NCBI GenBank assembly: GCA_903885595.1
Contig: CAISJJ010000502.1
Span: 1-64,000 of the forward strand
Origin: an uncultured Bacteroidales bacterium
Lineage (GTDB): Bacteria > Bacteroidota > Bacteroidia > Bacteroidales > FEN-979
DNA: 64,000 nucleotides
Direction of reading: 5' to 3'
Shown here: positions 5,204-20,261 of the stretch, piece by piece
Position numbering within the stretch: the stretch's first letter is position 1
How the letters are laid out: every line of letters begins with the position of its first letter
Program-made: the position numbers and the translations under genes
The notes under the pieces: generated by a model
What the model was told of the DNA's origin: nothing
The model's database searches: none
The model's input: only the letters and a program-made list of their open reading frames with translations

Positions 5204-5908
5204 ATGGAAGCAAAAGGAGATAACTACACTTTGTTCAATTGCGACAATTGCTTTTTAAATAACTTCACAAGTCTTTTTTTGAGTGAGGAGGAGCGCAGGT
5301 TGATATGCGCCAGCGCCAATCAACTGCATTTTAAAAAAGGGGAGATGATTTTAAAGCAGGGCGCAACTTCAACCAGTATCGGTTTTCTGCATAAAGGGAT
5401 TGTAAAATTCACCTATCAGAAGGATGCAAAAAAGAATTATATCATGACGGTTGTATCAGGTCCTAAGCTGATTGGTCAGGCCAATTTGTTTTTCAGGGAG
5501 AAAAATATTTTTTCAATCATCGCTGTTGAAGATTGTGATATTTGCTTTTTGGAGAACCGTCAAGTACTCGGGGTGCTTGAAAATCATGGGAAATTTCTAT
5601 TATCTCTGGTTGAGCGGTCAACCGACATGTTTCAATCTTCCATATTCAATTTTATCAGTCTTGCACACAACCATGTACATGGCCGGATTGCGGATATTCT
5701 AATTTTTCTCTGGGAAAATGTATATAAGAATTCGGAATATGAATTCACCCTCACCAGAAAGGAGATCTCTGAATTTGCAGCATGTTCACATGAAAATGTC
5801 ATCTCTGTTTTATCTACATATAACAAGGAAGGTCTGATTAGTTTTGAAGGACGAAAAATAATCATCATGGATTTGAATAAGTTAAAAGAAATCAGTAAAA
5901 ACGGATAA
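5204..5908 (+). CDS. Crp/Fnr family transcriptional regulator
   Basis: 234 residues: N-terminal cyclic-nucleotide-binding-like beta-roll (about 35-130), dimerisation helix (about 130-160) and C-terminal winged helix-turn-helix (about 170-225, with LTRKEISEFAACSHENVISVL as DNA-recognition part). The N-terminus has Cys13-x2-Cys16 (NCDNCF) and Cys35, with more cysteines at DCDICF and AACSHE. Cys13/Cys16 could bind an Fe-S cluster as in FNR, but the spacing differs from E. coli FNR and the ligand is unknown. It is divergent from the Fe-S operon and lies 10 bases upstream of the Rrf2 gene, so the two regulators are probably cotranscribed. Local control of both divergent units through the inverted repeat at 5114-5145 is a reasonable inference. 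Confidence 0.88.
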   Translation: MEAKGDNYTLFNCDNCFLNNFTSLFLSEEERRLICASANQLHFKKGEMILKQGATSTSIGFLHKGIVKFTYQKDAKKNYIMTVVSGPKLIGQANLFFREKNIFSIIAVEDCDICFLENRQVLGVLENHGKFLLSLVERSTDMFQSSIFNFISLAHNHVHGRIADILIFLWENVYKNSEYEFTLTRKEISEFAACSHENVISVLSTYNKEGLISFEGRKIIIMDLNKLKEISKNG

Positions 5909-5918
5909 TCCATCAGCC

Positions 5919-6329
5919 ATGCTTTCACAAAAAACAAGATATGCGATGGTTGCACTGACAAGGCTTGCCCGCGAATATGGTAAAGGGGCCATGCTGATCA
6001 GTGAACTTGCAAAGAGCGAAAAACTTCCCCAGCGGTTTCTCGAAAATATTTTACTTGAATTAAAAAAAATGGGAATTTTGGGTAGTAAACTTGGGAAGTC
6101 GGGGGGGTACTTTCTTTTACGGCATCCGAAGGATGTTAACCTTGCGGAAATAGTGCGGCAATTTGAGGGGCCGATCGCATTGCTCTCATGCGTTTCAGAA
6201 AAAGCCTACCAATCCTGCGAATTTTGTAAGGATGAATCGGCCTGTAACATCCGGAAAGTATTTAAAGAAATCAGGGATAGTACCTTTGAAAAGTTGGAGA
6301 ATACAACACTTGCCGTTTTGATTCAGTAA
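5919..6329 (+). CDS. Rrf2 family regulator with IscR-like cysteines
   Basis: 136 residues, typical Rrf2 length. N-terminal winged helix-turn-helix (MLSQKTRYAMVALTRLA, then LPQRFLENILLELKKMG and a wing GKSGGYFL), followed by the conserved DVNLAEIVRQFEG segment. Cysteines Cys91, Cys100, Cys103 and Cys109 form a cluster at the place where IscR binds its [2Fe-2S]; the spacing C-x8-C-x2-C-x5-C differs from E. coli IscR. This suggests sensing of Fe-S, iron or redox status. It is the second gene after Crp/Fnr. Likely targets are the divergent sulfur/Fe-S operon and the PLP-lyase gene downstream, although no binding site can be assigned from sequence alone. Confidence 0.9.
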   Translation: MLSQKTRYAMVALTRLAREYGKGAMLISELAKSEKLPQRFLENILLELKKMGILGSKLGKSGGYFLLRHPKDVNLAEIVRQFEGPIALLSCVSEKAYQSCEFCKDESACNIRKVFKEIRDSTFEKLENTTLAVLIQ

Positions 6330-6465
6330 TCAGGAAATATTGTATGATATTTTTCAAGATCTAAAACCACTCAAAGCAGGAGTGAAATAAATGGTTATTT
6401 TGAAGACTAATGCGGCGGCGGATTCTTCCCAGGTAATCTTATTTCTTTTCAATTTCATTGAATGG

Positions 6466-6510
6466 AATGCATGCATTTTACGTGAGAAAGGCGGGAAATT
6501 TGTATTTTTG
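6466..6510 (+). promoter_or_regulatory. candidate promoter and palindromic operator upstream of the Cys/Met lyase gene
   Basis: TATTTTTG at 6503-6510 matches the Bacteroidota -7 consensus. Upstream is a perfect 12-bp palindrome AATGCATGCATT (6466-6477), centred about 45 bases before the predicted transcription start, a position suited to an activator or repressor site. The region between 6330 and 6595 contains no gene; besides this promoter it holds a short heptamer repeat at 6560-6587. Confidence 0.4.
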
Positions 6511-6559
6511 TTGTGTAATGAAATATAAATTTTGAACTATCCCTTCGTTGGCTGTTTTA

Positions 6560-6587
6560 AAAAATCCAAAATTCAAAATTCAAAATC
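6560..6587. repeat. heptamer tandem repeat (CAAAATT), about 4 copies
   Basis: Copies at 6560-6566 (degenerate), 6567-6573, 6574-6580 and 6581-6587. It ends 8 bases before the ATG of the PLP enzyme at 6596. An upstream TTG at 6548 would make this repeat part of the protein, which is unlikely; this is why the later ATG was chosen. Confidence 0.7.
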
Positions 6588-6595
6588 CTTTATCC

Positions 6596-7786
6596 ATGCA
6601 AAAAGACCCATCAACAAAGATCTTTGATCTCCTTCAGTTTGGCGAATATGGGGATGTAAACCCTTCTGTTTGCGATTCAGCCACCTTTACCTTTATGCAG
6701 GCGAAAACAATGATGGACACCTTTCACGGTGAGGCAGAAGGGTGTTTTTTGTATTCACGGCACTGGAATCCAAGTAACAAGTACCTCGCCGATGCCTTGG
6801 CGGCCATGGAAGGTACCGAATCGGCCTGGGTTACCGCTTCCGGGATGGCTGCCATCACCTGTTCGATCCTGCAGATTTGCAACAGCGGCGACCACATCGT
6901 TTGCAGCCTCACTACCTATGGCGGAACCTTTGCCTTCCTTTTCAACTATGTGAAAAAATTCAACATCGATGTCACCTTTGTAGATATTACGAATCTCGAT
7001 CTTGTAAAACAGGCTATTCGTCCAAACACAAGAATGATCTATACCGAATCGATGACCAATCCTTTGCTGCAGATATCCGACATTCCTGCATTGGCAAAAA
7101 TATCTGATGATCACCATATCAAACTGGTGGTCGACAATACGTTTACCCCCATGATTGTTGCTCCATATCAGCTCGGAGCTCATATTGTTGTATACAGTAT
7201 GACCAAATTTATCAACGGTAAAAATGATTGTGTGGCAGGTGCCATCTGTGCTTCACATGAATTCATTAATGCGCTCAGTGATGTTAATGCCGGAACAGCG
7301 ATGTTACTGGGACCTGCCCTCGACCCCCTGAGGTCGTCAAGTATCCTGAAAAATATGCACACGCTGCACATTCGTATGAAGCAGCACAGTACAAATGCCA
7401 TGTACCTTGCCGTTAAATTCAAAGAGTATGGCATAAAGATCAACTATCCTGGCCTTCCTGAAAACAAGGGGCACAAAACGCTGAAGGGGATGATGAATCC
7501 TGAATTTGGTTTTGGTGGATTAATAGCCATTGATATGGTGACAGCTGAGCGGGCGGCGAAGCTGATGGAGATAATGGAAAAAAGTGGTGTTGGTTATCTT
7601 GCCGTAAGCCTTGGCTATTTCAAAACCCTCTTCAGCAATTCGGGGAAAAGTACGTCATCGGAGGTGCCGGAAGAGATTCAGCGGGAAATGGGTTTATCTG
7701 AAGGCCTGGTTCGCTTCTCCGTTGGTCTTGACAATGATATTGAGAATACCTGGCAGAAAATACAAAGCTGTTTGTCTCAGATGTGA
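6596..7786 (+). CDS. Cys/Met-metabolism PLP enzyme, methionine gamma-lyase-like
   Basis: 396 residues from the ATG at 6596. Trans-sulfuration family (cystathionine gamma-synthase/lyase, methionine gamma-lyase). Seen: YSRHWNPSNKYL near the substrate and PLP site, SGMAAI, VDNTFTPM with the PLP Asp, and the Schiff-base lysine in YSMTKFINGK. The stretch TYGGTFAFL resembles methionine gamma-lyase, but the cysteine typical of Pseudomonas MGL (YGCTFAF) is a glycine here, so the substrate may be cystathionine, cysteine, homocysteine or methionine. Sulfide or methanethiol production would fit the neighbouring cysteine desulfurase and Fe-S-type regulators. It is followed after 8 bases by an esterase gene. 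Confidence 0.85.
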   Translation: MQKDPSTKIFDLLQFGEYGDVNPSVCDSATFTFMQAKTMMDTFHGEAEGCFLYSRHWNPSNKYLADALAAMEGTESAWVTASGMAAITCSILQICNSGDHIVCSLTTYGGTFAFLFNYVKKFNIDVTFVDITNLDLVKQAIRPNTRMIYTESMTNPLLQISDIPALAKISDDHHIKLVVDNTFTPMIVAPYQLGAHIVVYSMTKFINGKNDCVAGAICASHEFINALSDVNAGTAMLLGPALDPLRSSSILKNMHTLHIRMKQHSTNAMYLAVKFKEYGIKINYPGLPENKGHKTLKGMMNPEFGFGGLIAIDMVTAERAAKLMEIMEKSGVGYLAVSLGYFKTLFSNSGKSTSSEVPEEIQREMGLSEGLVRFSVGLDNDIENTWQKIQSCLSQM

Positions 7787-7794
7787 TTTTTCGA

Positions 7795-8727
7795 ATGGCA
7801 CTTGACCCAAAAGTTATCGCATTGCTAACGGCTATTGAAGCTGCTGCAGACCCTGCTATCGACTCAATTCCCCTTGATGTTGCACGCGAGCAGGTTGAAA
7901 AAGGGTATGCCCGCATGAAAATTCCTAAAAAGCATGTTGGTTCGGTCCGAAACATTAAAATTCCTGGTTCTGCCGCTGAAATTCCGCTTAGGATATACAC
8001 ACCTGAAGGTTTAGGGCCCTATCCGGTCATTCTGTTTTTCCATGGTGGGGGTTGGGTGCTTTTCGACCTGGATGCATACGATCCAATCTGTTCTCACCTT
8101 TGTGCACTGTCAGGATGTGTGGTGGTTTCAGTAGATTACAGGCGGTCACCCGAATATAAATTCCCGGCCGCAACCGACGACTGCCTTGCAGCGACAAAAT
8201 GGGTTTCTGGAAAAATTGCAACATTGCATGGGGACCCGGGCCGGATATTTCTGGCAGGAGACAGCGCCGGCGGAAATCTTGCAGCAGTCACAGCCATGCG
8301 GATTTTCAACCAAGGTGGTCCCGCTATAAAAGGCCAGATACTAATCTACCCTGTGACCGATTATTATAAACCCGAAAAAAATTCCTTTTTTGAATTTGCC
8401 AATGGCTATAGTCTCACGAAGGATGCCTTGATCTGGTTCTGGGATAAGTACCTCAATTCTGAGGAGGATTCTGGAAATCCGTATGTCTCTCCTCTTAGAG
8501 CAACGAGTCTTTCAGGTCTCCCATCTTCCATTGTGATTGTTTCAGGCTACGATCCGCTTCGCGATGAGGCAATTGCCTATGCGAAGCGGCTGGAACAGGA
8601 GGGTGTCAATGTATGTCTGTCGGTGTATGAAGGGATGATCCATGGGTTCGTTAGTTACCTGGGCATCCTGAAACAGGCAAAATCAGCCATTGAAGAAATA
8701 TCAGGATGGGTAAAACAGCAGAAATAG
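7795..8727 (+). CDS. alpha/beta hydrolase, HSL-type esterase/lipase
   Basis: 310 residues from ATG 7795 (an in-frame GTG at 7783 overlaps the previous stop codon and is less likely). Hormone-sensitive-lipase family: oxyanion-hole HGGGW (83-87), nucleophile Ser157 in GDSAGG, acid in DPLRDE and catalytic His in IHGF near the C-terminus. No signal peptide, so probably a cytosolic carboxylesterase for small or medium acyl esters. It sits 8 bases after the PLP-lyase gene and is probably cotranscribed; the metabolic link is unclear. Confidence 0.9.
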   Translation: MALDPKVIALLTAIEAAADPAIDSIPLDVAREQVEKGYARMKIPKKHVGSVRNIKIPGSAAEIPLRIYTPEGLGPYPVILFFHGGGWVLFDLDAYDPICSHLCALSGCVVVSVDYRRSPEYKFPAATDDCLAATKWVSGKIATLHGDPGRIFLAGDSAGGNLAAVTAMRIFNQGGPAIKGQILIYPVTDYYKPEKNSFFEFANGYSLTKDALIWFWDKYLNSEEDSGNPYVSPLRATSLSGLPSSIVIVSGYDPLRDEAIAYAKRLEQEGVNVCLSVYEGMIHGFVSYLGILKQAKSAIEEISGWVKQQK

Positions 8728-8792
8728 TCTGTTCGCGTCCGGGGTGGAAATATGGAATGCTGATCAACCATTGATATCAAGATAATTAACTG

Positions 8793-10103
8793 ATGAAACA
8801 TCGGCCAACTTTCTCGAACATTACCATCGGCTTCATAATGCTGATAATGACTGTTGTTTCCTCCAATCTAAATTGGGGAAAGGATAGATGGAAGGACATT
8901 ATCGAATCAGATGCCAAAGGATATTATGCCTATTTGCCGGCAATATTTATTTATCATGATTTGAATTTTGATTTTTTTAATTTAATTGAAACAGAGAAGT
9001 ATTATGACAAGAACTTGTATTATGATTACAGGTCAAGTGCAAATGGAAAGATTATCAACAAGTATTATTGCGGAACTGCGCTGGCGGAACTGCCTTTTTT
9101 CCTGATCGCTCACACAATGAGTTACCTGTTGGATTTTAATGCCGATGGCTATTCAAAATTATATCACATCTTCATCAATATATCTGCGTTATTTTATCTT
9201 CTGATCGGACTGTTTTACATGAATTCGACTTTGAAAGGATATAATATCAAAGAATGGGAAAAATCACTGGTCCTTTTTGCCGCCGTGTTCGGAACCAACT
9301 TGTTCTATTATACCATCGGCGAACCTGGTATGTCGCACATCTATTCCTTTGCCTTCATTTCAATGTTTTATTTTTATTCAAGGCAATATTTTTCCACTTT
9401 TCGCAAAAAGTATCTGCTGGTACTGGGGCTCATCCTGGGAGTAATTATCCTTATCAGGCCAGTAAACGCCTTAATAATTGTCATATGGCCATTCGCAGCA
9501 GGCGATTTTCATATCCTGAAAAAAGGAGTTATCAGCGCTTTCAATAAACCTTTGAATCTGATATCCGGGTTTTTCTTATCCCTTGCCATTGTCTCGATTC
9601 AACTCATTATTTATAAAATTTCAACGGGAAGCTTTTTTGTTGACTCATATGGGAGTGAAGGATTTAATTTTCTTCATCCGCAGATAGTTGACATATTACT
9701 TAGTTATAAAAAGGGACTATTCCTTTACACCCCGTTGTTCCTGTTGAGTCTGACAGGTGGGTATTTTTTATGGAAATCCTCCCGGTATCAATTTTTTACC
9801 TGGTTTGGCGCATTCATCCTGATCACCTATGTATTTTCTTCATGGTGGATGTGGTATTACGGCGGAAGTTTCTCATCAAGGGTCTTTGTTGAATATATTC
9901 CCTTATTTATAATTTTACTGGCAATCGCATTACATTCAATTCGGCTTAAAAAGCTGAAAAGGATATTTGCAGGAATTATCTTACTGTTAATTGTTGTTTG
10001 TCAAATTCAAACATATCAATATCGTTACTACCAAATTCATTGGTCTGATATGACAAGGGAAAAATATTGGGAAGTGTTTTTGAGAATCGATAAATTATGG
10101 TAA
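8793..10103 (+). CDS. polytopic membrane protein, GT-C-like
   Basis: 436 residues with about ten hydrophobic segments spread along the length. The first extracytoplasmic loop contains an acidic pair (ESDAKGYYAYLP), as in GT-C glycosyltransferases that use lipid-linked sugar donors. Short aromatic-rich loops (YTIGEPGMSHIYSFAF; SSWWMWYYGGSFSSRVFVEY) resemble conserved loops of Bacteroidota GT-C proteins of unknown acceptor. I cannot assign a family with certainty. It is followed at once by a strong terminator and faces a second GT-C-like gene on the opposite strand. Confidence 0.6.
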   Translation: MKHRPTFSNITIGFIMLIMTVVSSNLNWGKDRWKDIIESDAKGYYAYLPAIFIYHDLNFDFFNLIETEKYYDKNLYYDYRSSANGKIINKYYCGTALAELPFFLIAHTMSYLLDFNADGYSKLYHIFINISALFYLLIGLFYMNSTLKGYNIKEWEKSLVLFAAVFGTNLFYYTIGEPGMSHIYSFAFISMFYFYSRQYFSTFRKKYLLVLGLILGVIILIRPVNALIIVIWPFAAGDFHILKKGVISAFNKPLNLISGFFLSLAIVSIQLIIYKISTGSFFVDSYGSEGFNFLHPQIVDILLSYKKGLFLYTPLFLLSLTGGYFLWKSSRYQFFTWFGAFILITYVFSSWWMWYYGGSFSSRVFVEYIPLFIILLAIALHSIRLKKLKRIFAGIILLLIVVCQIQTYQYRYYQIHWSDMTREKYWEVFLRIDKLW

Positions 10104-10139
10104 AAGAAGGTGTCCTGAATTACAGTTGACACCTTCTTT
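10103..10139 (+). terminator. intrinsic terminator between two convergent membrane-protein genes
   Basis: Perfect 12-bp stem AAAGAAGGTGTC (10103-10114) with GACACCTTCTTT (10128-10139) and a 13-base loop, starting at the stop codon of the upstream gene. The A/T-rich stem base lets it work in both directions, as expected between convergent genes. Confidence 0.85.
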
Positions 10140-10174
10140 GGTTATAAACCCAATTGAAAATAATCCTTGCAGGT

Positions 10175-11632
10175 TCACCAGACCCTGATCAGTAAGGTGT
10201 TAGTTCTTTCTGATGAAAAAATGATTTCATGGTTAATTTTCAAAGCCGCTGTGTCCTCTTTAAAGATATAGCGGTAATCGTCCCTTTCAGTGAAACCATT
10301 CCGGTCAACAGGTAATAGCCATTTTATTTTCCTGGTTTGAATATAATAATTGATTGTTGGTTCAAATATCCAATTGATCCCCAATTTAATGCTGGCCGGT
10401 TTTAATCCCGTATGTTGCTGGTAACTGACAAGTGCAGCAACAGCATTTTTAGTCTCCATGTCATACCCCCAGTCAGCACAGGAATATAGATTCCTGTTTG
10501 TATAAAAGTTGGAGACAGATAACAGGGCAATTATAACAACAAATCCCTGAATTAGAATCCGGTACCGGAATTTTAGCATGTATTGGAGTAGAAATCCAAA
10601 GTTTAAGATCAACAGTGGAAGAAGAAATAATGAGAAACGCCCAACCAGATAATCGGTTTTCAAAATGTAATGCTGTAACATTGTTTCTGTTGCAATGCTC
10701 AGAATAATTAAATTAACAATGATCAAAGCCCTGTTTTGACTGAAAAATTCCTTGTTTGCATTGTTTATGTTTATAAGGATGATGATGAATGAAAGTAAAA
10801 CAAGGGACAAAATGGAAATTTGAAGCAGTAAGATACTACCCGAGGTTAACTGCACATTCGTGAAAATATGATAAATGAGTGCTGTTACCGTATCTGTTAC
10901 GAATCCTTGCTTTCCGCCAAAATCAAAAGAGTTGAACTTAACCGCTTTTCTAACTGGCTCATAAAGAACAATCAATAGAAAAAAAAAGAGAATGATATTA
11001 ACTTTATTTGTCTTGAATATGCTGAATTTTTCTTTGTCGATAAATCGGGATTCGGTGAATTGCATAAGATTGAAAACCAACAAAGCTGAAATATAATAAC
11101 TCAGCATCGTGAAATTGCTTAATATGGCCAGGAGTGCAGCAATGTTAAACAGTACTAGGTGTTTGTTTTTATTGTTATCGAATGATGAGATCAGATGATA
11201 TATGCTCATGATCATAAAGCCGATTGACAAGCCATATCCTCTTGCCAAGCCGAAAAAGTCGGTTATGGCAATGTTCGTTGACATGAGCATAAAGATTGAT
11301 ATCGCAATAACGGGATTAGCTCCCCGAAATAATAACCATATATAAAATAAAAATACCACAAGCATCAGCAAATTTGGCATTCTTAAAGCAATTTCCGAAT
11401 TTCCAAAAAGTTTCTCCGAATACTTCATGAATAATGTATTCAAAACGTGATTGTTGGTAAAAGCTCCTTGATTGGAAATAATATCCATGAAACTTTGAGA
11501 TACATAATGGAGATATGTATAACTTTCGTCATGGGTAAAAGACGAAACAGTGGATTTGTATGCTATGTATGAAAAAACAGTGATCCCTGTAAGTATGATA
11601 ATTATCGAACCAATACAGGACCTGTTCTTCAT
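10175..11632 (-). CDS. polytopic membrane protein, GT-C/GT39-like
   Basis: 485 residues with about 11-12 hydrophobic segments and a short C-terminal extracytoplasmic domain of ~90 residues. The first loop has THDESYTY, the Asp-Glu motif expected for a GT-C glycosyltransferase using a polyprenyl-phosphate sugar; NHVLNTLFM follows, also typical of this group. Function is inferred as sugar transfer to an envelope lipid, protein or glycan; the acceptor is unknown. Convergent with the other GT-C-like gene. Local composition is A/T-rich with many Ile, Phe and Asn codons, as expected of a membrane protein. Confidence 0.6.
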   Translation of the reverse strand: MKNRSCIGSIIIILTGITVFSYIAYKSTVSSFTHDESYTYLHYVSQSFMDIISNQGAFTNNHVLNTLFMKYSEKLFGNSEIALRMPNLLMLVVFLFYIWLLFRGANPVIAISIFMLMSTNIAITDFFGLARGYGLSIGFMIMSIYHLISSFDNNKNKHLVLFNIAALLAILSNFTMLSYYISALLVFNLMQFTESRFIDKEKFSIFKTNKVNIILFFFLLIVLYEPVRKAVKFNSFDFGGKQGFVTDTVTALIYHIFTNVQLTSGSILLLQISILSLVLLSFIIILININNANKEFFSQNRALIIVNLIILSIATETMLQHYILKTDYLVGRFSLFLLPLLILNFGFLLQYMLKFRYRILIQGFVVIIALLSVSNFYTNRNLYSCADWGYDMETKNAVAALVSYQQHTGLKPASIKLGINWIFEPTINYYIQTRKIKWLLPVDRNGFTERDDYRYIFKEDTAALKINHEIIFSSERTNTLLIRVW

Positions 11633-14794: not shown

Positions 14795-17700
14795 CTAATT
14801 GGTTTTTACTAGTTTAGTACTGATGTTCAGGCCATCTCCTGAATGAATTCTCAGTAAATAGATACCGACTGGAAGGGCGGCGGTCGACATTTCGATTGTA
14901 TTACTGCCACGATTGACCATATCTTCACGCATTATCCTTAGATGACCGGTCATATCAAAGATTTCAACCTGAATTTGTGCCGGTTCCTTCATTTCCAGGC
15001 TAATCGATACCTTCTCATTCATTGGATTTGGATAGGCTTTCCAGGACTGAACGATTGATCTCTCCCCATTAACTCCCATAATGCTGTTCCCGATAAAGGT
15101 CATGTTGATTATAACATGTGGATTCTCCTGCGTTATATTAACCATAACATAGTCGCTCGTGATCCCTGGCATCTCGGCATGCAGATAATAGGTTCCATAT
15201 GCCAGGGTTGAAAAATCGAAGGTGCCGCTTGATGTAACAGGTGTGAACCCGATTGCCTGGCTCTCGGCGTTCATCAATATCATATTAATCATATCGATCA
15301 ATGTCGCTGGCATGTCACCCGTGTTTATCTGACCCGATGCGGAACCCGGTCCGGGCGACATCTGGTTCGAGGGAACAAGGTTGATGTTGTAAGGATTGTT
15401 CGCAGTTCCCAGCGTAATGAGGGTGGCCTGCTCCCAGTTGATTGAATTGCCATAATAGGTTGGCAGATAACCATTAGAGTCAAACGGAGTGGCAAGAATG
15501 TAATAACTGCCATCGGGAACCATCGTGAAATAATAGACGCCGTTTGAATCAACCGGACATACTGCAAAATATGGCTCCGGGTTGCCGGTTGTGTCCACAG
15601 CGAAAATCATGGCCATCCCCATGGGAACCGGGAAATTACCTGCAAATACCTGCCCGTAAATCACATGGAAATAGGAACTGTCATATAGCGCCACGTCCTG
15701 GCAGAAAGTACTGGTACAGTTATTATCCGTTATTTGCAGGCAAACGTTGTATGTGCCGGGTGCGGCATAGGTGTGAACCGGGTTCTGAACAGTATCGGCA
15801 GTTCCGTCGCCGAAATTCCATAACCAGGATGTCGGAAGGCTGAGTGAAAGATCTGTAAAGATAACAGTACGATTCCCGGGTGGCGGATCGATCGTATAGG
15901 TGAAATAGGCATGACAACCTGGGCCGGTTCCGACAAAAACTGAATCAGTGGTGTAATCAAAGCACGCACTGTCAGCACCCTGGATGGTAAGAGTTGCCAG
16001 GTATACGCCCGTAGCCTGATAAGTGTGTACGGGATTCTGCAGATTGGAAGTTGTCCCGTCGCCGAATTGCCAGAACCAGGAGGAAATGGAACCTGTCCCT
16101 GCTGTTGATTGGTCAAGGAACTGTATGACAAATTCCGAATTTAGCGAATCACTGTAGTAGGTGAATTCAGCATGACAGGCCGGTGATGTTCCGATGGCCA
16201 GGGTTTTACAGGTTACGTCGTAGCAGCTGCTGTCGGCCCCGTGTATCGTGAGACAGGCATCATAGGTGCCGTTTGCCGAATAGGTGTGGATTGGATTTTG
16301 TTCGGTTGATGTTGATCCATCCCCGAAATCCCACAGTCTTGAAATGATATTCCCGGTAGACTGATCAATGAAATGAAAAGTGTAGGTTGGGTTCAGACTG
16401 TCGGAATCGATCCTGAATGCAGCATGGCAACCTGCCCCGCCTGTTGAATCCCAGACATTTACTACTGCGGAGGTAAAATCAAAACAGGAAGAGAGACTGT
16501 CCCCGATGGTTAATCCGACAATATACAGTCCGCCGGATGGAAAGATATGGACAGGACTTGTTTCTGTTGAGAAAGTGCCATCTCCGAAATTCCATGAATA
16601 GATCCCATTGCCACCGGTGGATGTATTGGTGAAATATACCATTCGGGCAGCAGGCTGAAAATAGGAGAACTCTGCGTTGCATGTGGGTGTGTTCCCTACA
16701 ACGATCGTATCGCAGTAAATATCGGAACAAATGCTGTCGGCACCCTGGATGCTCAGGCAAACCGCATAAAGTCCTGGTTCAACATATCCATGGGTGGGAT
16801 TTTGCAGTTCAGAGGACATCCCGTCACCGAAATTCCAGCTCCAGTTGGTGATGTTCCCCGACGACTGATCTATGAATTGATAGTAATAACTGGAATTCGA
16901 ATCCGGATAGGCTGTGAATGCAGCCTCGCATGGTTCGGCAATCGAATCTCCCACCTGGATTAGTTCATAGGTGTAGGCAAAACACCCTGAAGCGCTGTCC
17001 CCGATGCTCAATCCAACGAAATATTGACCGGTCTGCTGGTATGTGTGGATTGGATTTTCCTCTGTAGAAGAAGCTCCGTCACCGAAATTCCATAAATTGA
17101 CTCCATTACCACCCACTGAGGCGTTATTGAAATGTATCGTCAGGGGATCTGTCTGAAAATGATAATAGGAGAACGCTGCATTACAGGGAGCCGGGCTGCC
17201 GACGATTATCGTATCGCAGGTGAAATCGAAACAGGAACTGTCGTTGCCGTGGATGCTCAGGCAAGCTGAATAAATCCCGGGTTCAGTATAAACATGGGAT
17301 GGGTTTTGCAGATCAGAGGTAATTCCGTCTCCAAAGTTCCAATACCAGTTGGTGATGTTTCCTGCTGACAGATCGATGAACTGATAAGCGTAAAGGGCAT
17401 TCGAATCGGGATAGACCGCGAATGAAGCGTTACACGGTCCGCCAAGCGAATCCCACACATGGATGCTTTTGATAATGCTGTCGTAGCAGGGCACATTCGG
17501 GGTACCGATGATCAGGAGTACATTATAATCACCGGATTGCGAATAGGTGTGTATAGGATTGAGTTGGGTGGAGGTGACTCCATCGCCGAATGACCAGTAC
17601 CGTGCGTCACCGCCACCTGCTGAGGCATCCATGAATTGGACCGTTAGTCCTTGCATGTGATAACTGGTAAAGTCGGCCTGGCATGGACTGTTTGCATTGC

Positions 17701-18037
17701 AGATTGAAAAATCTACCGTTATAGTTGCTGGTATTGGTTCAAAAGTTACAACTGTCTGGTGAAGGATGCCCATGCAATCCAGCGTGCTTACAAACAGGAT
17801 TCCCTGACTTATGTTGCCTGGGACAGGTATTGTATCATAATAATATCCACTGTTATTCGTGTAAACAGTTTTGTAGAAAAACCACCCGGTAACGGAATCG
17901 GCACTGATGGTCACGGCATGGTTTGAAATCGCATACCCGGCAGTATCAGTTAAAGTCCCATTTATGATCACATTGACCTGCGATATGGCGGGAAGTACCA
18001 GGAACAGAAATAAAATCTGAAGAAATAATTTTCTCAT
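14795..18037 (-). CDS. secreted eight-PKD-repeat protein with T9SS sorting domain
   Basis: 1080 residues. Order: signal peptide (1-19, ending AISQ); a CNA-B/carboxypeptidase-regulatory-like domain (about 20-112); eight PKD domains of 81-87 residues (about 119-787), each with a W-(N/S/D/Q)-FGDG motif and most with NPxHTY; a second regulatory-like domain beginning about 795 (VIYGQVFAGNFPVPMG); a linker; and a C-terminal type A T9SS domain (AYPNPMNEKVSISL ... GIYLLRI). Each PKD unit has paired cysteines. Export by the type IX system to the cell surface or medium is expected; PKD arrays usually mediate protein or polysaccharide contact. No catalytic domain is seen, so an adhesin or matrix role is likeliest. 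Repeats 2-5 alternate in type (see findings). Confidence 0.9.
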   Translation of the reverse strand: MRKLFLQILFLFLVLPAISQVNVIINGTLTDTAGYAISNHAVTISADSVTGWFFYKTVYTNNSGYYYDTIPVPGNISQGILFVSTLDCMGILHQTVVTFEPIPATITVDFSICNANSPCQADFTSYHMQGLTVQFMDASAGGGDARYWSFGDGVTSTQLNPIHTYSQSGDYNVLLIIGTPNVPCYDSIIKSIHVWDSLGGPCNASFAVYPDSNALYAYQFIDLSAGNITNWYWNFGDGITSDLQNPSHVYTEPGIYSACLSIHGNDSSCFDFTCDTIIVGSPAPCNAAFSYYHFQTDPLTIHFNNASVGGNGVNLWNFGDGASSTEENPIHTYQQTGQYFVGLSIGDSASGCFAYTYELIQVGDSIAEPCEAAFTAYPDSNSSYYYQFIDQSSGNITNWSWNFGDGMSSELQNPTHGYVEPGLYAVCLSIQGADSICSDIYCDTIVVGNTPTCNAEFSYFQPAARMVYFTNTSTGGNGIYSWNFGDGTFSTETSPVHIFPSGGLYIVGLTIGDSLSSCFDFTSAVVNVWDSTGGAGCHAAFRIDSDSLNPTYTFHFIDQSTGNIISRLWDFGDGSTSTEQNPIHTYSANGTYDACLTIHGADSSCYDVTCKTLAIGTSPACHAEFTYYSDSLNSEFVIQFLDQSTAGTGSISSWFWQFGDGTTSNLQNPVHTYQATGVYLATLTIQGADSACFDYTTDSVFVGTGPGCHAYFTYTIDPPPGNRTVIFTDLSLSLPTSWLWNFGDGTADTVQNPVHTYAAPGTYNVCLQITDNNCTSTFCQDVALYDSSYFHVIYGQVFAGNFPVPMGMAMIFAVDTTGNPEPYFAVCPVDSNGVYYFTMVPDGSYYILATPFDSNGYLPTYYGNSINWEQATLITLGTANNPYNINLVPSNQMSPGPGSASGQINTGDMPATLIDMINMILMNAESQAIGFTPVTSSGTFDFSTLAYGTYYLHAEMPGITSDYVMVNITQENPHVIINMTFIGNSIMGVNGERSIVQSWKAYPNPMNEKVSISLEMKEPAQIQVEIFDMTGHLRIMREDMVNRGSNTIEMSTAALPVGIYLLRIHSGDGLNISTKLVKTN
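15675..17683 (-). repeat. coding tandem array of eight PKD units (~250 bp each)
   Basis: The DNA encoding the PKD domains is a degenerate tandem repeat. Units 2 and 4 share YPDSN, GNITNW, LQNP and CDTI; units 3 and 5 share FSYY or FSYF, GGNG and IGDS. The shared two-unit period (~500 bp) implies duplication of pairs. Confidence 0.75.
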
Positions 18038-18203
18038 GATGAAAAAGGTTTAATAACTGATTAATAATCTGTGATTTCTTTTTGTTTTTTTTATTGGTTT
18101 TTTTTTGCATTGTAGAAAAAGTTAACAAATGAACCTGGTTCTTGAAGGTTGTTGATTATTAAACCCATTCATTGTAAAAGGTTGCCTGGAAATCTGAAAT
18201 TTT

Positions 18204-19613
18204 TTAAAATTTTATAATGCAGGCCGCACGGATACCTATCGACCAGGGTTTGGTGTTATTTACAGGTTTTTCATAGACAGAATTAAAATAATACCTCGCA
18301 TCAGGTTCAATTTCAATACGTAACATATTGCTGAGGCGAACAGAAAAAGTAAATCCTCCAAGTAATTGCCAGTTCAGGTTCACTTGCCCGGGTGCAATAT
18401 CGTTGATACTGTAAATCCGTTTTGAGCCTGGATCGTATTCTCCCGACAGATTTTTGGAAGCCAGCAGGACAGACAATACAGGCCCGATCCGTACCCCGAT
18501 GGAAACGGTTTCGGTTTGCCAGACTTCATACCCAAGGATCATCGGAATTTGCAGATAGGTATATCTTTTTACAACTTTTGGATAATCGGATTTAAGTAAA
18601 CTATCCCAAACATCTTCATGCGACATATAATACTTTGGAATATACTGCTTTACCGGATCGTTCCATGTAAGTTGCATGGAGTCAAGTTTGTTATAAGCAC
18701 CCAGGTAGTCATTGTACTCCACAATAAGCTCATTCGTTCCCTTCGCAATGGATAACCCGGCTCCTGTACGGACCGAAAACCTCTCAAAAATAAAAATTCC
18801 TTCCAGTCCGAAATTGCTGACAAATTTACTGCCATCCAATGTATTGAACATTAATTCCGGGGCATAGTAAAATCCGATGGAGGGAATCCAGTGGTTACTC
18901 CTTACGGCAACATCTCTGGCTACTTCTGTTTCGCTCGAATAGTGTGTGGTGGCGGAGCCCTGGTTAGTAATCACTGTGACATTTCCGGAATAAGGGGTTT
19001 TCGGAGTTTCATAGTTTACACTGTCTGTGACGCCGGGGGTTATTGTTTCATCTATCTTTCGCAAACTGTTCTCAGTGGATGTGATACCGCTTGTGTAAAC
19101 ATTTGGTACAGGGTGTTGATCAGTTGCCTTAACCATGGGAGGTTGCTCAGTCACCTGATTTAGTGATTTCTCAGTATTTTGGATTGGTTCAGTTTTCAGG
19201 GGGGATATCCGTTCTATGGATTTTTGATTTGTCTTGACCGGAGCAGACTGAGTATTCGTTGAATTGTTCTGTAATCCGTTATTGCTTTTTAGGGATGTCG
19301 TTTCTGAATTTCTTTTATAATTCGCTCCGGTCGCCTGGTTTTCTGGTTTTGTCAATAAAACCGGATGGGTTAAAGGCTTGTCTGTGACTGTAGTGGTTTT
19401 ATCTGAGGTGATGGTCCAAAAAATAATGCCGGTACTAACCAGAACCAGCAATACTGAAAGAAGGAATAAGCCATTTCTTCCTTTCTTTACTGGCCGGTGC
19501 ACATGGAGGGCCTCCTTCAGGAAAGCCTGTTTGGCAGCATCTGAAGGCGCTATCTGGTGATCCTTGAGGTTTTCCCTGAAGAAGTCATCAATCGGATGAT
19601 TATACTTTTTCAT
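18204..19613 (-). CDS. anti-sigma-like cytoplasmic segment joined to an outer-membrane beta-barrel
   Basis: 469 residues. Residues 1-46 are cytoplasmic and resemble the start of Bacteroidota anti-sigma proteins (IDDFFRENLKDHQIAPSDAAKQAFLKEA). Residues about 47-67 form one membrane helix (GLFLLSVLLVLVSTGIIFWTI). Residues about 70-235 are a Ser/Thr/Asn/Pro-rich, low-complexity periplasmic linker. Residues about 240-469 look like a PorT/OmpW-like outer-membrane barrel (alternating strands, ends in IIKF). The gene overlaps the upstream ECF sigma gene by 14 bp, so coupled expression is certain on this strand. Inferred: a membrane-anchored regulator of that sigma factor that reaches the outer membrane. 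The anti-sigma function is by context, not by a recognised domain. Confidence 0.65.
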   Translation of the reverse strand: MKKYNHPIDDFFRENLKDHQIAPSDAAKQAFLKEALHVHRPVKKGRNGLFLLSVLLVLVSTGIIFWTITSDKTTTVTDKPLTHPVLLTKPENQATGANYKRNSETTSLKSNNGLQNNSTNTQSAPVKTNQKSIERISPLKTEPIQNTEKSLNQVTEQPPMVKATDQHPVPNVYTSGITSTENSLRKIDETITPGVTDSVNYETPKTPYSGNVTVITNQGSATTHYSSETEVARDVAVRSNHWIPSIGFYYAPELMFNTLDGSKFVSNFGLEGIFIFERFSVRTGAGLSIAKGTNELIVEYNDYLGAYNKLDSMQLTWNDPVKQYIPKYYMSHEDVWDSLLKSDYPKVVKRYTYLQIPMILGYEVWQTETVSIGVRIGPVLSVLLASKNLSGEYDPGSKRIYSINDIAPGQVNLNWQLLGGFTFSVRLSNMLRIEIEPDARYYFNSVYEKPVNNTKPWSIGIRAACIIKF

Positions 19614-20184
19614 AGGTAATTTTTGAATTAATTTTAACCAGTTGATCCAGTTTTTTTCTGAGCATGGCCCGGGCTTTCGAAAGTTGTGACTTAGAAGTGC
19701 TCTCTGAGCATTGGAGACTGGAGGCTATATCTTTATGACTATACTGTTCAAATACATACATGTTGAAAACCATCCTGTAACCGGTCGGCAATGTGCAAAC
19801 CAATTCCATGATTTTCTCTTGTCCGATCAATTGGTATAACTCATCAGGATTGAACACCTCCTCCTCCTGGAGATCAAGTTTATCAATAATAGGATCTATA
19901 TCAATAAATCCTTTCTCCTTAGCCCGGTCACGCAAAGAATTAAGTGCAGTGTTGACAATAATCCGTTTCATCCAGGCTTCAAATGAGCCATCGGAACGGA
20001 TTTTGAATTTATCAAGATTCTGGATGATTTTAATGAACCCATCGTGGAGAACATCTTCGGCATCTTCGCGGTTCCCGCAATATCGATAGCAGATGCCCAG
20101 GAATTTTGGAGCAAAGCGATCATATAACGCTTCAATGGCGCTGGCTTCCCTGGCGATTGCTTTTTTAATAAGGGTTTCCTCCAC
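19600..20184 (-). CDS. ECF-type RNA polymerase sigma factor
   Basis: 194 residues with the two-domain ECF layout: sigma-2 at about 12-85 (AIEALYDRFAPKFLGICYRY; NREDAEDVLHDGFIKI; FEAWMKRIIVNTALNSLR) and sigma-4 at about 125-180 (LPTGYRMVFNMYVFEQYSHKDIA; SKSQLSKARAMLRKKL). It directs RNA polymerase to a small regulon, presumably including its own operon. The next gene overlaps its end and probably encodes its membrane-bound regulator. The ATG at 20184 is preceded by an imperfect -7 box (TACCTTTA, 20211-20204). Confidence 0.93.
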   Translation of the reverse strand: MEETLIKKAIAREASAIEALYDRFAPKFLGICYRYCGNREDAEDVLHDGFIKIIQNLDKFKIRSDGSFEAWMKRIIVNTALNSLRDRAKEKGFIDIDPIIDKLDLQEEEVFNPDELYQLIGQEKIMELVCTLPTGYRMVFNMYVFEQYSHKDIASSLQCSESTSKSQLSKARAMLRKKLDQLVKINSKITYEKV

Positions 20185-20261
20185 GTGAATTCAATATCCT
20201 GCATAAAGGTAACACAAGACCTCGAAAAGGTTGCCTCGAAAATTGAATTTTAACCCACATT

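Follow-up and report, generated by a model that had tools for sequence, protein, structure and literature searches.

The locus described here is probably a self-regulated ECF sigma factor switch of the Dma type that is dedicated to one surface protein of the type IX secretion system (T9SS). It lies in the window, by which we mean the whole analyzed stretch of 64,000 nucleotides from the genome of an uncultured Bacteroidales bacterium. A sigma factor gene is followed by the gene of a 469-aa protein, in which an anti-sigma-like end and a predicted outer-membrane β-barrel are joined in a single chain, and by a third gene for a PKD-repeat protein with a T9SS sorting domain. An earlier sequence-only reading of this DNA dealt with the first two genes. 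The third gene and the promoter-like box, which stands both before the sigma gene and after the barrel-protein gene, go beyond it and tell the most about the locus. In the reading direction, the features are as follows:

20211..20235, minus strand: box 1, promoter-like GGCAACC-N13-GTGTT, beginning 51 nt ahead of the sigma start codon
19600..20184, minus strand: ECF sigma factor gene, GTG start, 194 aa (PF04542, E 1.5e-18; PF08281, E 3.4e-15)
18204..19613, minus strand: barrel-protein gene, ATG start, 469 aa, with the next four parts
19476..19613, minus strand: residues 1-46, two-helix anti-sigma-like domain, predicted to be cytoplasmic (helices 7-16 and 25-36)
19404..19475, minus strand: residues 47-70, inner-membrane helix (AlphaFold2 helix 46-70, positive charge on the N-terminal side)
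18888..19403, minus strand: residues 71-242, Ser/Thr/Asn-rich disordered periplasmic linker (low pLDDT, poorly conserved)
18204..18887, minus strand: residues 243-469 and stop codon, predicted 8-stranded outer-membrane β-barrel (Pfam, AlphaFold2, VIA-align)
18162..18186, minus strand: box 2, promoter-like GGCAACC-N13-GGGTT, between the barrel-protein gene and the PKD gene
14795..18037, minus strand: third gene, 1080-aa PKD-repeat protein (PF18911, 8 stretches; PF18962, E 4.6e-13; TIGR04183, E 3.3e-12)

Sigma factor gene

The Pfam matches of sigma regions 2 and 4 lie far past the cut-off, and the match to TIGR02985 stays under the family cut-off. The distance between the GTG start and box 1 is the same in the closest relatives. 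The frames of the sigma and barrel-protein genes, both on the minus strand, share 14 nt. This overlap had been pointed out before, and its coordinates and frames were confirmed from the open reading frames. In the window's own genome, region 4 was matched 20 times, and as judged by eye, the window's sigma factor alone precedes a barrel-fused protein.

Architecture of the 469-aa protein

The sequence-only reading had proposed a cytoplasmic end of about 45 residues, one membrane helix, a linker, and a β-rich C-terminus, and the AlphaFold2 model agrees with this layout. The model (m242e8344feb5) was computed with 46 aligned sequences as input and has a mean pLDDT of 72 and a pTM of 0.50 over the whole chain. 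The model, conservation, and the Dma family as published in the available part of PMC13088901 lend good support to a single polypeptide with both an anti-sigma-like end and an outer-membrane barrel.

Residues 1-46: No anti-sigma family of Pfam matches this segment. A FecR domain match is absent at E values up to 1 in both Pfam and NCBIfam, and a FecR-type anti-sigma identity is thereby ruled out. In the same genome, two short membrane proteins encoded beside other ECF sigma genes (L113, 1705-2298; L116, 526-1065) have starts that resemble residues 1-46 by eye. A shared anti-sigma motif is possible.

Residues 71-242: A long Ser/Thr/Asn-rich linker had been correctly recognized, with a length of about 165 residues; by the present boundaries, it has 172, of which 63% are S, T, N, P, Q, K, or E. 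The pLDDT is below 50 over most of 74-237. Fully extended, the linker would measure about 60 nm, which exceeds what is needed for crossing the periplasm.

Residues 243-469: The β-strands between 243 and 468 have pLDDT values mostly above 90, with 69 for the block 401-410. The only sensible Pfam match of the whole protein is the outer-membrane barrel family PF13568 (E 0.001, under the curated cut-off); across the own genome, a search with this family gave 15 places. With VIA-align, the predicted barrel matches NspA, a solved 8-stranded barrel, with Z 16.8 and rmsd 3.0 over 153 aligned residues, and OprF, OmpA, and OmpW with Z 15.5-16.5. By manual strand assignment, one side carries loops of 13-53 residues (297-349, 389-412, and 444-456) and one tight hairpin, and the opposite side has turns of 2-4 residues. 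The model thus has the features of the OmpA-class 8-stranded fold, in which the turns on one side are short and the loops on the opposite side mostly long. The chain ends in Phe, as outer-membrane proteins do. Whether the C-terminal domain is a barrel or a periplasmic fold had been named as decisive for the earlier proposal, and it is modeled as an OmpA/NspA-type barrel.

A joined chain of the sigma factor and the cytoplasmic end of L046 was modeled as well. In this model, which has only three aligned rows over the anti-sigma end and no sigma-only counterpart for comparison, SigW of the RsiW complex is the closest match to the sigma part (Z 13.3, rmsd 5.2, 155 aligned). CnrH-CnrY (Z 10.9), RpoE-NepR (Z 10.7), and SigK with an RskA-type anti-sigma factor (Z 10.7-10.9) align over both sigma domains; SigG1, which was solved without an anti-sigma factor, also fits both (Z 11.2, 147 aligned). 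For sigma-E with RseA and AlgU with MucA, the alignment is limited to one domain, and the polymerase-bound sigma chains among the matches listed mostly have an rmsd above 20 or a single aligned domain. The fold search barely covered the cytoplasmic segment, and the model yields no contact map. We infer from the two-helix end, the gene overlap, and the published Dma family that residues 1-46 are likely to hold the sigma factor.

The third gene encodes a predicted T9SS cargo protein

Besides its PKD repeats, the product of the third gene contains CarboxypepD_reg stretches, and the C-terminal sorting domain matched by PF18962 and TIGR04183 marks it as T9SS cargo. The own genome has a full-length match to the T9SS sortase PorU (1323.6 bits). 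In G000:C476, two adjoining PorU matches above cut-off were observed at 5363-10900, the second of which spans model positions 1-695 only.

We inspected 51 loci (L034-L084) for a PKD gene next to the barrel-protein gene. The PKD signature FGDG is encoded in a gene at most 350 nt downstream in 46 of them. Among the misses, a PKD domain is nevertheless matched by Pfam in L070, L036 has FGDG in an open reading frame broken off by the contig end, L040 is cut short, and the PKD gene of L068, preceded by a box, lies about 1.6 kb farther downstream. No PKD gene was found downstream in L084. The T9SS tail motif YPNP occurs in 35/48 of the listed downstream open reading frames, and 6 of the 13 misses are interrupted by contig ends. 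Our search of open-licence literature found no work that pairs an anti-sigma factor with type IX secretion and a PKD protein.

Promoter-like boxes

Boxes 1 and 2 have the pattern GGCAACC-N15-GTT in common. For counting, we scored ten fixed positions, took at least nine as a hit, and searched a span of 180 nt after the barrel-protein gene. Before the sigma gene, a box is present in 34 of 42 loci versus 4 of 210 random windows, a count that omits 12 of the 54 loci, which lack a usable sigma start. After the barrel-protein gene, it is present in 36 of 50 loci (4 of the 54 being omitted) versus 9 of 250 random windows. Some random windows may themselves contain real boxes, and many loci are closely related, so that the box and gene-order counts are not counts of independent events.

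Throughout the own genome, the pattern occurs at three places, namely, boxes 1 and 2 and one site inside an open frame of more than 1,000 codons; the reversed pattern likewise occurs at three places. An earlier, stricter pattern gave one additional site, within an open frame on the opposite strand. Boxes 1 and 2 are the only intergenic sites. As the extra sites lie inside open frames only, a large regulon is ruled out at these pattern strengths. The regulon looks local at the strength of the patterns used, at which weaker sites would be missed. Box 1 is a candidate autoregulated ECF promoter, and both boxes should be read as sequence motifs, not as mapped promoters.

The after-barrel box was missed in 14 of the 50 loci. 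Two of these, L060 and L064, share a deviating 3′ element, GGATT, in both of their boxes, as expected if one sigma factor reads both. This points to joint evolution of the boxes and the local sigma factor, perhaps in one event, as L060 and L064 are related. L068 is a further miss, its box lying farther downstream, ahead of the distant PKD gene. In L071 (9623), L076 (8693), L077 (8694), and L078 (9420), a box follows the PKD gene, and no large gene in the plus direction starts from it; a small RNA or a small gene behind this box is possible. In L082 (8186-10594), another gene with the PKD signature (747 aa) comes after the box that follows the PKD gene and is possibly a further member of the regulon. 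In L072, L073, L080, L081, L083, and L084, no box was found after the barrel-protein gene or the PKD gene.

Judged by title, none of the open-licence matches listed is an account of the GGCAACC box in Bacteroidetes. In F. psychrophilum, the promoter motif SM6 (CGT box) ties an ECF/anti-sigma pair to T9SS genes, according to the available part of PMC9723704. The accessible portions of PMC8999054 and PMC12596196 contain nothing on a sigma/barrel/PKD locus of this type.

Distribution among relatives

The earlier proposal called for a search for the same architecture in other Bacteroidota, and the architecture was found there. Matches occur in 51 of 100 genomes, a set made up of the window's own genome and those of relatives, and a profile search confined to the phylum Bacteroidota gave matches in 77 of 395 genomes. 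The genome collection yielded 54 loci, whose titles are nearly all Bacteroidales or Bacteroidetes; L045 is titled Alphaproteobacteria and was taken as mislabelled. In 48 of the 51 loci L034-L084, the barrel-protein gene is immediately preceded by a sigma gene, with L054 and L069 counted as hits though their barrel-protein frame is broken. The loci without it are explained by contig ends (L053, L065) and a broken frame (L040). The junction between the two genes is overlapping or tight in relatives, too. A chance arrangement is ruled out by this recurrence.

More distant relatives share the first two genes. We fetched 29 further loci, 18 of which encode a barrel-profile protein, each of them with a sigma gene upstream (18/18). 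A PKD neighbor was seen with none of these 18 proteins (6 have none, and 12 loci end too soon). Thus, the general mechanism does not include a PKD partner, which, by gene order, is a feature of the window's lineage.

A second, more distant paralogous set has the succession of sigma, barrel-protein, and PKD genes in 12 of 12 modules. The set consists of 11 hand-picked regions and includes L130, a module with a long overlap; L134 shares its contig with L071 and is a member of the first set. With the exception of L134, no box was found before the sigma or PKD gene in the second set. Several of its PKD genes overlap the barrel-protein gene or start shortly behind it, so coupling would be by co-transcription. 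L133 (856-7616) has two tandem sigma/barrel/PKD modules in one genome.

Comparison with known systems

The architecture singled out in the sequence-only reading is not new and has already been described as the Dma family of gut Bacteroides. According to the available part of PMC13088901, Dma2 of B. thetaiotaomicron has an N-terminal anti-sigma domain, a TM helix, a disordered tether, and a C-terminal barrel, and it is encoded with the ECF21 sigma factor Das2. Deletion of dma2 raises vesicle production, and this effect requires das2; deletion of either dma1 or dma2 leads to more vesicles, which is an envelope phenotype. The same part of the article gives genetic evidence of anti-sigma function in the family. 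Transfer of the outer-membrane state to the sigma factor is put forward there as a hypothesis, and a ligand is hypothesized with none named. In Dma3, the sigma domain is fused at the N-terminus of the barrel protein (PMC13088901, available part).

The window protein is best filed as Dma-like, by its predicted architecture and not by sequence comparison with Dma1 or Dma2. Compared by description, it has the same four parts in the same order (a short cytoplasmic N-terminus, a single helix, a long tether, and a predicted barrel), an adjoining ECF sigma gene, and an origin in Bacteroidota. Like the window's genes, dma2 is in an operon with a third gene, but that gene encodes a protein of unknown function, whereas the window's encodes a PKD T9SS protein with its own box. 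In contrast to Dma3, the window's sigma factor has a separate gene. The conserved third gene and the twin promoter-like box are what the present locus adds to the Dma type. A further reference on a Dma-type system is reportedly Pardue et al. 2024 in PNAS.

FecI-FecR-FecA: This system has a separate outer-membrane receptor and an inner-membrane anti-sigma factor. Outer-membrane state is reported to an ECF sigma factor, as proposed for the present locus, but receptor and anti-sigma factor are apart, and no FecR domain is matched here in Pfam or NCBIfam.

CnrH-CnrY and RpoE-NepR: CnrY and NepR are short two-helix anti-sigma peptides. The window protein resembles them in its short two-helix cytoplasmic segment and differs in its outer-membrane barrel, which they lack.

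PorXY-SigP: In Porphyromonas gingivalis, a two-component system controls the T9SS machinery, as stated in the available parts of PMC4800418 and PMC7712824. Here too, an ECF sigma factor is tied to type IX secretion, but according to the same parts, the system governs the secretion machinery and not a single adjoining cargo gene.

Proposed mechanism and alternatives

In the mechanism that we favor, the uncleaved helix would anchor the 469-aa protein in the inner membrane, the C-terminal domain would form a barrel in the outer membrane, and the linker would bridge the periplasm, as predicted from sequence and model. Residues 1-46 would hold the sigma factor until its release. The freed sigma factor would then transcribe its own operon from box 1 and the PKD/T9SS gene from box 2, for which the twin boxes argue. 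The input is the least certain part. The signal may be read by the barrel's conserved outer loops and would most likely reflect whether the PKD protein is present or how well the T9SS and the outer membrane are working, and the sigma factor may be freed via the linker by pulling, misassembly, or proteolysis. The mean majority-residue share is 0.65 in the outer loops versus 0.74 in the strands (A1; 0.56 versus 0.66 in A2), and 0.23 (A1) and 0.18 (A2) in linker residues 74-240. The loops are thus conserved nearly like the strands and the linker is not, which supports the barrel as the sensing surface. As to the nature of the signal, our guess is cargo, T9SS state, or barrel assembly.

A narrower version, which we put forward tentatively, is that the loops bind the adjoining T9SS cargo of the same locus (or its translocon) and that the single chain relays their occupancy to the sigma factor, by which sensor and cargo alike are transcribed. 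If true, one protein would close a feedback loop running from the cell surface to the choice of promoter, and the Dma family would gain a defined ligand. Dma proteins are a recently described single-chain link from the outer membrane to transcription. With a sensor paired with one exported protein and a shared box in most loci, the question of the barrel's signal becomes a small one of three genes and two promoters.

The strongest alternative has no ligand at all. Successful insertion of the barrel by the machinery for outer-membrane assembly would keep the protein intact, failed insertion would lead to proteolysis that frees the sigma factor, and the PKD protein would be an envelope-stress output. 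The uncleaved inner-membrane anchor and the long disordered linker would suit a protease-exposed intermediate, and the vesicle phenotype of dma1 and dma2 deletions (PMC13088901, available part) points the same way. However, a pure assembly reporter need not keep its outer loops at nearly the conservation of the strands, and the tight pairing with one PKD gene would be left unexplained. We regard this explanation as a serious possibility, though not a probable one.

As a rule, T9SS cargo has a translocon and an attachment of its own. This speaks against the proposal that the barrel chiefly serves the surface PKD protein as a docking site or assembly partner, with the cytoplasmic end providing feedback that matches the cargo made to the places available. 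Conserved outer loops and the recurrence of the PKD gene next door, both in the 46 of 51 loci and in the second paralogous set, fit such a role. Binding of the barrel to the PKD protein is hypothetical, however, and the Dma-like proteins of the wider phylum were seen without a PKD neighbor in all 18 cases, 12 of them in loci that end too soon. On balance, we find this role rather unlikely.

The N-terminal part might also have no anti-sigma function, the protein being a tethered outer-membrane protein that is merely co-translated with the sigma factor. The missing Pfam anti-sigma match of residues 1-46 agrees with this, but these residues are conserved above the membrane helix and the linker, the overlapping or tight junction with the sigma gene recurs, the starts of L113 and L116 are similar by eye, and the Dma family (PMC13088901, available part) provides a precedent. 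We therefore consider it very improbable. Finally, an ordinary inner-membrane anti-sigma factor with a periplasmic β-structure, for which the below-cut-off Pfam barrel match could be cited, is ruled out on the AlphaFold2 model and the VIA-align matches (a high-confidence OmpA-class barrel with Z up to 16.8, loop/turn asymmetry, and C-terminal Phe) and has hardly any probability left.

Fused and split forms

Searches by barrel similarity to the window protein also led to three Dma3-like proteins, in which an ECF sigma factor, a membrane helix, a linker, and a barrel form single polypeptides: L085 (258-1793), L086 (4882-6420), and L087 (2244-3848), titled Paramuribaculum, Muribaculaceae, and Porphyromonadaceae. 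In L085, sigma regions 2 and 4 and PF13568 are all matched above cut-off. The next gene is not a PKD gene in L085 and L086, and L087 ends too soon to judge.

An apparent split form, in which a membrane protein of about 240-330 aa is followed by a separate open reading frame, was observed in L138, L139, L150, L153, L155, L157, L161, and L162. Its N-terminal start resembles that of the window protein, which suggests that fused and split versions of one system exist. The fused, split, and sigma-fused forms offer a comparison of which parts are needed. The second open reading frame of the split form was compared with PF13568 in two loci, with a match above cut-off in L161 and below it in L139.
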